Of a stretch of DNA of 32,021 nt, positions 5,818 to 19,800 are shown piece by piece (the stretch's first letter is position 1; each line of letters starts with the position of its first letter). Made by a program: the position numbers and the translations under genes. Source of the DNA: Nitrospirota bacterium (lineage in GTDB: Bacteria; Patescibacteriota; Gracilibacteria; UBA1369; LOWO2-01-FULL-3). The stretch is taken from assembly GCA_030598325.1 (NCBI GenBank), contig JAUVQE010000005.1, forward strand, positions 1 through 32,021, given 5' to 3'. The notes beneath the pieces were generated by a model. That model saw nothing but the letters and a program-made list of their open reading frames with translations, was not told the DNA's origin and searched no databases.

Positions 5818-6264
5818 TTACTGAAATCTTTTCAATTGTTTTTTGATTTCCATTTCCTGGGAGCGTTTTTTTAGGATTTCGCGTTTGTCGTAGAGCTTTC
5901 TGCCCCGGCAGATGCCGATGCGGATTTTTATCAGGCCTTTTTTGCCGTAGAGCTCGATTGGGATCGCGGTTGTTCCTTTTTGGGAAATCGCCTGGTCAAT
6001 TTTTGCGATTTCTTTTTTGTGGAGAATGAGTTTTCGTTTTCTTGTAGGTTCAAACTGGGCTCTGGCTGAATGTTTGTAACGGGAAATGTGGACTTCATTT
6101 AAATAAGCTTCGTTTTTTTCCACATCTACGAATCCTCCTTTCAGATTTGCCTGATTTGCTTTTATCGACTTTACTTCGTCACCATTCAAAACTATGCCTG
6201 CTTCATAGTCTTCTAAAACTTCATAGTCGTGGAGGGCCTTTTTGTTTTTTGCGTAGGAAGGCAT
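5818..6264 (-). CDS. smpB: SsrA-binding protein SmpB
   Basis: KNKKALHDYEVLEDYEAGIVLNGDEVKSI...DKREILKKRSQEMEIKK. Confidence 0.95.
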   Translation of the reverse strand: MPSYAKNKKALHDYEVLEDYEAGIVLNGDEVKSIKANQANLKGGFVDVEKNEAYLNEVHISRYKHSARAQFEPTRKRKLILHKKEIAKIDQAISQKGTTAIPIELYGKKGLIKIRIGICRGRKLYDKREILKKRSQEMEIKKQLKRFQ

Positions 6265-18920: not shown

Positions 18921-19158
18921 TGTATCAATCGTGCGAGTGGGTGCAAGGTGTTTTTGGCTTGTTTATGCGGTTATACAATGATTTTTAGGGGTGAAGAATG
19001 GTGATGGGAAATTATCGCGAATGTGGGTGAGTGTGTGCTCACCTTGTCGGTTGTTTTAATAATTTTGATTTTGAATTAGTGATGATGAAGAATAATTTGT
19101 TAGAAGGGAAGTATTGAATAATTTTATTTTCCCGATTTTTCCGTCAAGGGGAAAAAAT

Positions 19159-19300
19159 CCCCGGGGATTTTCGTCGGTTCTGTGGATGCGCTTTTTCCCC
19201 GGGGATTTTTGTCGGTTTTGTGGATGTGCTTTTTCCCCGGGGATTTTCGTCGGTTCTGTGGATGCGCTTTTTCCCCGGGGATTTTCGTCGGTTCCTGCGC
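19159..19300. repeat. Tandem array, 4 copies, period 38 bp, unit CCCCGGGGATTTTYGTCGGTTYTGTGGATGYGCTTTTT
   Basis: CCCCGGGG at 19159, 19197, 19235 and 19273, exact 38-bp spacing; last copy diverges after GTCGGTTC. Confidence 0.92.
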
Positions 19301-19407
19301 TTGTCTCTGCGATTTCGGTTTAAACCGAAAATTTCCAAAAAAACTTTAAGAAAATTTAATAAAAATTTAATGTTTGTTTGCTACGGTCGGTACAGCTAGT
19401 CGGGAAT

Positions 19408-19478
19408 GGGGGCAGCCTGGAGCGGGTCAGGACTTGTCAATCCTAGCCGCAGGGGTTCGACTCCCCTTGCCTCCACCA
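19408..19478 (+). ncRNA. tRNA-like element with T-arm and encoded CCA but no standard D-arm or anticodon arm; possible tmRNA-like domain or aberrant tRNA
   Basis: Acceptor GGGGGCA/TGCCTCC + A + CCA; T-arm AGGGG-TTCGACT-CCCCT; central hairpin GGTCAGGA-CTTGTCAA-TCCTAGCC (one mismatch); outer GCTAGTCGG/CCGACTAGC flanks. Confidence 0.65.
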
Positions 19479-19496
19479 CCGACTAGCATATATAAT
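19467..19496 (+). promoter_or_regulatory. Promoter TTGCCT-18-TATAAT overlapping the tRNA-like 3' end
   Basis: -35 TTGCCT 19467-19472, -10 TATAAT 19491-19496. Confidence 0.55.
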
Positions 19497-19502
19497 AGAC
19501 AT

Positions 19503-19563
19503 GACAAGTCCTTACCGCACTAGCTGCAGAAGAAAGTCCATCTTAAGTAGGTGGGCTTTTTTT
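19503..19563 (+). ncRNA. Candidate ~60-nt small RNA complementary to the tRNA-like element
   Basis: Starts just after the predicted promoter. TGACAAGTCCT (19502-19512) is the perfect complement of AGGACTTGTCA (19429-19439). Ends with AGTCCATC-TTAAGTA-GGTGGGCT-TTTTTT. Confidence 0.45.
19535..19563 (+). terminator. Intrinsic terminator 1
   Basis: 8-bp stem AGTCCATC/GGTGGGCT (includes G-T pairs), loop TTAAGTA, followed by a T-run. Confidence 0.7.
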
Positions 19564-19581
19564 AATATCGACGAAGTGCAA

Positions 19582-19612
19582 AAGACCCCGCTTTCTCAAC
19601 GGGGTCTTTTTG
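19582..19612 (+). terminator. Intrinsic terminator 2
   Basis: AGACCCCG-CTTTCTCAA-CGGGGTCT-TTTT. Confidence 0.85.
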
Positions 19613-19800
19613 GTAGGTTGCGTGAATTACCTGAGAATACTTATATTATATCGAAAATGTGTGTTTATTTCAAGAATACGCTTGCCTCCACCATCTAGAC
19701 ACAATAGAACCCCAAAATCTGTCAATCTTTTATTGTTTACGGAATAGAATTGAGTTTAGTCCTATGGTATAATGAAAGAAGTTTTTTAAGAATAAAAAAA

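Follow-up and report, generated by a model that had tools for sequence, protein, structure and literature searches.

The locus examined here raises the question of what is encoded by a tRNA-like element that is followed by a short sequence exactly complementary to its central hairpin. It lies within a 32,021-nt stretch of DNA that was analyzed as a whole and is called the window in the following. A preliminary description, made from the sequence of the window, had reported an acceptor stem, a discriminator A, an encoded CCA and a T-arm, with 36 nt between the acceptor and the T-arm, a TTGCCT-18-TATAAT element downstream and two terminators. All of these are present where they had been placed, and both terminators fold (Table 1); a simple terminator scan listed neither of the two hairpins. 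No open reading frame of at least 80 aa was found across the module within the window. A module of this type occurs once in its own genome assembly, which is 74% complete.

Table 1. Coordinates of the tRNA-like RNA (TLD), the antisense small RNA (sRNA) and their signals in the window.
Feature	Position	Strand	Basis or remark
Three direct repeats TTTAAG / TTTAAT / TTTAATG (starts 19345, 19355, 19366)	19345..19372	+	competence-type promoter box, TLD gene
Putative -10 TACGGT of TLD gene; predicted start ~19393-19395	19382..19387	+	placed relative to repeats and leader
Leader-trailer helix, 5' strand GCTAGTCGG	19395..19403	+	pairs with 19479-19487
tRNA-like RNA (TLD), 71 nt	19408..19478	+	covariance model and 90-sequence covariation
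TLD acceptor GGGGGCA / TGCCTCC	19408-19414 / 19468-19474	+	sequence
TLD segment GCAGC, TLD side of helix B	19412..19416	+	helix B permutation test, z=12.6
TLD segment GGTCAGGACTTGTCA (P2 5' strand and loop), partner of sRNA 5' end in helix A	19425..19439	+	complementarity
TLD T-arm AGGGG-TTCGACT-CCCCT	19451-19467	+	sequence
TLD discriminator A	19475	+	sequence
TLD encoded CCA	19476-19478	+	sequence
Leader-trailer helix, 3' strand CCGACTAGC	19479..19487	+	pairs with 19395-19403
Antisense sRNA -10 TATAAT	19491..19496	+	motif; spacing as in homologous modules
Antisense sRNA, ~65 nt, ends ~19565-19567 (5' antisense, linker, terminator)	19502..19567	+	complementarity and fold
sRNA linker GCTGC, pairs with TLD nt 5-9 (helix B)	19523..19527	+	comparison with homologs
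Intrinsic terminator of sRNA and of TLD read-through	19532..19567	+	fold -14.4 kcal/mol, then T-run
Second terminator-like hairpin	19577..19613	+	fold -16.5 kcal/mol

Two other repeats lie close to the module. Tandem 38-bp repeats with a CCCCGGGG palindrome (window 19158-19293) stand directly 5' of the TLD promoter, and the last 13 nt of the TLD (CTTGCCTCCACCA) recur as an orphan at 19682-19694. This copy is absent from the other loci (67 tested), and the idea that it marks an attachment site was rejected, as it was seen at 1 of 67 loci.

A check of the locus with ARAGORN and Rfam, as had been proposed in the preliminary description, found no known family at threshold. Specifically, ARAGORN called no tRNA or tmRNA at the locus, the TLD was not detected as a tRNA by RF00005, and no Rfam 15 family matched it at threshold, the best match being to the two ends of tmRNA only, with 33.3 bits against a gathering score of 47. 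Since a true tmRNA is moreover located on another contig of the genome (G000:C7), we rejected the reading as an ordinary tRNA or tmRNA. Of the properties that define tmRNA, the TLD has the alanine identity and the A73-CCA end; it scores below the Rfam gathering threshold and has no mRNA-like tag region, with only 36 nt from acceptor to T-arm.

Using blastn on 60 related genomes, we found diverged relatives in which changes in the central hairpin were accompanied by changes in its downstream complement. A covariance model (R1) built from ten blastn relatives has matches in 86 of the 90 genomes of the order, a tally that includes ordinary tRNAs; matches of 68-73 nt were taken as TLDs. By the covariance model the module is present in most genomes of the order and often multicopy, with at least five TLDs in several genomes and a maximum of about ten orthogonal copies in one genome. 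The family extends to other lineages of the class and phylum, and a pattern search gave matches in Candidatus Peregrinibacteria and Patescibacteria. Three Acidimicrobiia matches of this search were rejected as members, as they look like tRNA-Pyl-type genes. Acidimicrobiia MAGs (L166, L169, L173) hold tRNA-Pyl-like genes with the loop CTCTAAA, near copies with CTGTAAA and then degenerate tRNA-like repeats. At locus L136 (genome G146), two genes of 75-76 nt (814-888 and 1123-1198) are called tRNA-Leu(UAA) by ARAGORN and each has a 15-nt perfect complement directly upstream; these are probably misannotated full-size members of the TLD family. Neither a conserved neighbour protein, which might have pointed to a target of the effector, nor a conserved linked transferase was found beside the TLDs. 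Large treble-clef zinc-finger genes adjoin 5 of 67 TLDs (L010, L012, L058, L104, L111) compared with 0 of 26 tRNA controls, a weak association. A phage or virus origin was rejected, with no match in phage records or a viral collection.

The TLD consists of a 7-bp acceptor with G3-U70, a small D-like region with GG, a P2 hairpin with a U-turn-type loop, a T-arm, A73 and an encoded CCA. Covariation over 90 sequences was 0.732, compared with 0.196 for shuffled and at most 0.13 for slid controls, with 93.7% of cells pairing; because the alignment of the 90 TLDs was fitted to the covariance model, these figures lean towards structure. A degenerate tRNA or pseudogene was rejected on covariation and distribution. 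Pair 3 is G-U in all 90 TLDs, and G3-U70 is the alanine identity element of AlaRS substrates and tmRNA. By end-based indexing A73 is present in 86 of 90, and the full CCA is encoded in 71 of 90. In the model P2 has 9 bp and a loop of 7-8 nt, and not the 5 bp and 7-nt loop of an elongator anticodon arm. The loop has a U-N-R core in the first ten TLDs; the U-turn motif is a feature of antisense target loops. Leader-trailer helices are stronger than swapped controls (median 7.0 vs 4.3), and 38 of 66 exceed the 95th percentile.

As the preliminary description had noted, TGACAAGTCCT (19502-19512) is exactly complementary to AGGACTTGTCA (19429-19439); the antisense stretch reaches 19516 if one mismatch is allowed. 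Taken alone, this 11-nt pair is borderline, with a score of 12.0 against a 99th percentile of 12.2 for TLDs matched to the flanks of other TLDs. The match is judged to be far above chance because homologs keep complementarity at equivalent places with differing sequences. The window's pair is carried by its position and layout, both of which match those of tandem relatives. For each of 90 TLDs, the flanking 300 nt were searched for the sequence that best complements the middle of the TLD, with another TLD's flanks as the control. Median scores were 15.0 for cognate and 8.4 for swapped flanks; for 75 of the 90 TLDs a private antisense scores higher than the 99th percentile of the swapped control, and 15 have no significant partner within 300 nt. 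Loss of complementarity in homologs had been named beforehand as the result that would speak against the pairing, and the opposite was found. Two of the suggested explanations, a minimal tRNA-like regulator and an anti-tRNA small RNA, gain support from the complementarity that homologs keep.

The first 16 nt of helix A, in which the sRNA 5' end pairs with the TLD, are 96% paired compared with 41% for swapped partners, with four to six pair types per position; this 96% is partly selected for, since placements were chosen as best matches, and the unbiased test is the swapped-flank search (75 of 90). Helix B, formed by TLD nt 4-12 and the sRNA linker (in the window GCAGC and GCTGC), covaries as well, with a mean of 5.13 vs 3.64 (z=12.6, 0 of 20000 permutations). 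Cofolding gave a median ddG of -16.6 kcal/mol for cognate and -2.0 for swapped partners, and 53 of 55 pairs fell beyond the 1st percentile. In the individual cofolds inspected, the acceptor, D and P2 helices are predicted to come apart and the T-arm to persist. Paralogous pairs are insulated within genomes (cognate 14.6 vs non-cognate 6.0, non-cognate maximum 13.4). At L105 and L106, orthologous loci in two genomes of one genus, the antisense follows the change in the TLD. We consider the predicted RNA pairing to be well supported computationally, and we know of no other tRNA-shaped RNA that has an antisense RNA of its own with covariation over the whole length of the pairing. A coding function of the sRNA was rejected, as its reading frame was inconsistent by inspection.

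A third suggested explanation was an RNA switch acting in cis, in which a single transcript would adopt either of two nested folds. As a general mechanism this is not supported, as 53 of the 75 significant pairs are convergent, 11 divergent and only 11 tandem like the window. In the convergent and divergent pairs the partner is encoded as a separate unit on the opposite strand. For the switch it had been proposed that leader CAGCTAGT may pair instead with ACTAGCTG. The window allows this pairing, but the homologs inspected do not keep it; the second helix that is conserved joins TLD nt 4-12 to the sRNA linker. In the predicted minimum-energy fold of the window's read-through transcript the TLD is left intact.

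The two genes have different promoters. Upstream of 67 TLDs, the motif T[TG]T[ACT]A recurs with a periodicity of 11, 22 and 33 bp (z=29, 20 and 9). Direct repeats are present in 42 of 67 TLD promoters compared with 4 of 237 random windows, and in 0 of 58 sRNA promoters over the 45 nt examined. In these 58 modules the antisense mostly starts 5-7 nt after a TATAAT-like -10. In each of three related genomes, 23-29 sites match a strict form of the repeat, compared with about one for a reversed control. In genome G014 the repeats lie upstream of the ComFC, SSB, RecA, DprA and ComEC genes in addition to TLDs, and also upstream of HicA, HicB, RelB, Phd/YefM, DUF4258, KilA-N and PSP1 genes. The window's genome (G000) has them upstream of comM and dprA, with a similar repeat before comEC, and lineage-specific variants are found before ssb or comEC in G058, G061, G053 and G087; comM, the G000 dprA and the G058 ssb are genes that we take to be such by eye, not by profile search. 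Within the other families, such variants upstream of ssb or comEC look like the family's own TLD promoter. Judged by these repeats, the TLD promoter shares a cis-element with competence genes within this order only. No promoter repeats were seen among the TLDs examined outside the order, so that the link to competence may be an addition confined to it. A Pho regulon, which the 11-bp repeats had prompted us to consider, was rejected: a search of 12 genomes gave no match to the pstS-type profile TIGR02136, and it is competence genes that follow the sites. Natural competence is a conserved trait of these bacteria that has been shown experimentally in Saccharibacteria, and ComEC, DprA and ComFC are conserved throughout the phyla concerned (PMC10633639).

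Three further promoter patterns were observed. The toxin-antitoxin genes of G014 (RelB, DUF4258, Phd/YefM, HicB, HicA; L227, L233, L238, L240, L245) have promoter repeats common to recA, dprA and comEC. At L229 and L240 of the same genome, the same hairpin, CGCGTCATAGGAAATACGC, stands behind two competence-type promoters and may be a further RNA element. TLDs L128-L131, of a family in the class (f19), have a different common upstream pattern around TACACT...ATGTCAA...TTGTTA.

Collectively, the module, its pairing, covariation and orthogonality and the shared promoter repeats are supported by comparative evidence of the sequence kind. We propose, at a probability of roughly 0.55, that the module produces a competence-induced, alanine-acceptor-like RNA effector that is neutralized by an independently made antisense RNA, resembling an all-RNA toxin-antitoxin pair. 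We infer the charging, target, toxicity and induction of the TLD and the direction of control as follows. The first gene would yield a tRNA-shaped RNA of ~71 nt with G3-U70, A73 and usually an encoded CCA, in which the P2 hairpin replaces the anticodon arm; its transcription from the competence-type repeat promoter would, in this order, be induced with competence. The second gene, with a TATAAT-type promoter, would yield a ~65-nt sRNA, presumably constitutively. The 5' end of this sRNA would meet the TLD loop and extend down the P2 5' strand (helix A), and its linker would dock on TLD nt 4-12 (helix B); in the predicted complex the acceptor, D and P2 folds are lost and the T-arm is left. The TLD would be an RNA effector, probably alanylated, that acts on translation and may be toxic or growth-slowing if unopposed, and the independently made sRNA would neutralize it. 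That the sRNA is an antagonist is the simplest reading because it has a separate promoter, changes in step with the TLD and is predicted to unfold it. A toxin-like effector on translation is favoured because of the alanine identity without an anticodon, the several orthogonal copies and the promoter element shared with toxin-antitoxin genes. We put forward more tentatively that this is a competence-gated addiction module made of RNA throughout, in which alanine-accepting tRNA-shaped toxins jam translation, a private antisense unfolds each of them, and transformants that replace the locus are penalized.

Several other readings share part of this evidence. The TLD may be a mini-tmRNA that works with SmpB in ribosome rescue without tagging, tuned by the antisense and not a toxin. 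This agrees with the tmRNA tRNA-like domain as the sole RNA family matched, with the tmRNA-like G3-U70 and missing anticodon arm, and with an ORF at 5818-6264 of the window that we take, by eye, to be smpB-like. We regard it as rather unlikely, as the genome already has a full tmRNA and up to about ten orthogonal copies with private antisense RNAs would be unusual for a housekeeping rescue factor. A related proposal, that the sRNA brings the mRNA-like part of a two-piece trans-translation system by base pairing to the TLD, would suit the antiparallel two-helix docking and locus L010, which can be read as ATG...GCT GCA TAA. By inspection, however, there is no conserved frame, linkers vary in length and frame and several run directly into the terminator, and GCTGC is accounted for by its pairing with GCAGC, which makes this proposal highly improbable.

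Another reading makes the TLD a sponge, a stable tRNA-like decoy that titrates an sRNA whose real targets are mRNAs. The TLD seems to be the regulated partner and the sRNA the constitutive one, and a tRNA-like fold would give a stable decoy. The sRNA guide nevertheless varies between copies, even in sister species, and still complements its TLD, which fixed mRNA targets would forbid, and a conserved G3-U70, A73 and T-arm would be superfluous for a decoy; we consider the sponge unlikely. Alternatively, the TLD may donate alanine outside the ribosome, for example for envelope chemistry during competence, under antisense regulation. Alanine identity without a decoding anticodon and the competence-type promoter would fit such a donor, but no conserved linked transferase was found and orthogonal multicopy pairs would be unneeded, so we hold this to be quite improbable. 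The proposed effector with its neutralizing antisense RNA is the reading that we favour.

Taken together, this is a previously unlisted two-gene RNA module in ultra-small bacteria of the Peregrinibacteria group. In a literature search that was mostly of open-access papers, with subscription journals and preprints little covered, we found no description of the TLD/antisense module. The RNA family occurs in multiple copies in a large phylum whose members are mostly uncultured, and ARAGORN overlooks the family except for one related full-size form called tRNA-Leu. The shared promoter repeats connect the module to natural competence and bring to light an apparent competence regulon with toxin-antitoxin genes among its members.

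Among known systems, the tRNA-like domain of tmRNA (RF00023) is similar in its GGGG... acceptor with G3-U70, small D-loop with GG, P2 directly onto the T-arm and CCACCA end. Unlike tmRNA, the TLD has no mRNA-like region, tag or pseudoknots, is 71 nt long and multicopy, and has its own antisense RNA. The permuted two-piece tmRNA (RF04321) likewise consists of two RNA pieces with one tRNA-like part, whereas both TLD acceptor strands are in one molecule, and the match is 17 bits against a cutoff of 47. Type VIII toxin-antitoxin systems such as CreTA (PMC9458426) share the two neighbouring RNA genes, effector and antagonist, and orthogonal copies, and in our set 75 of 90 TLDs are paired with an adjacent RNA gene within 300 nt. 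CreA acts via a CRISPR effector (PMC9458426), whereas the effector of the present module is tRNA-shaped, would be toxic only by our reading, and is paired with directly by its antagonist. In U-turn-loop antisense systems, such as plasmid copy control and type I toxin-antitoxin pairs, an antisense 5' end likewise meets a UNR loop and a long duplex results, and here too extended complementarity is kept through compensatory change. The module differs from these in that the target is not an mRNA, a second docking helix is present, and the predicted effect is the unfolding of a tRNA-like molecule.
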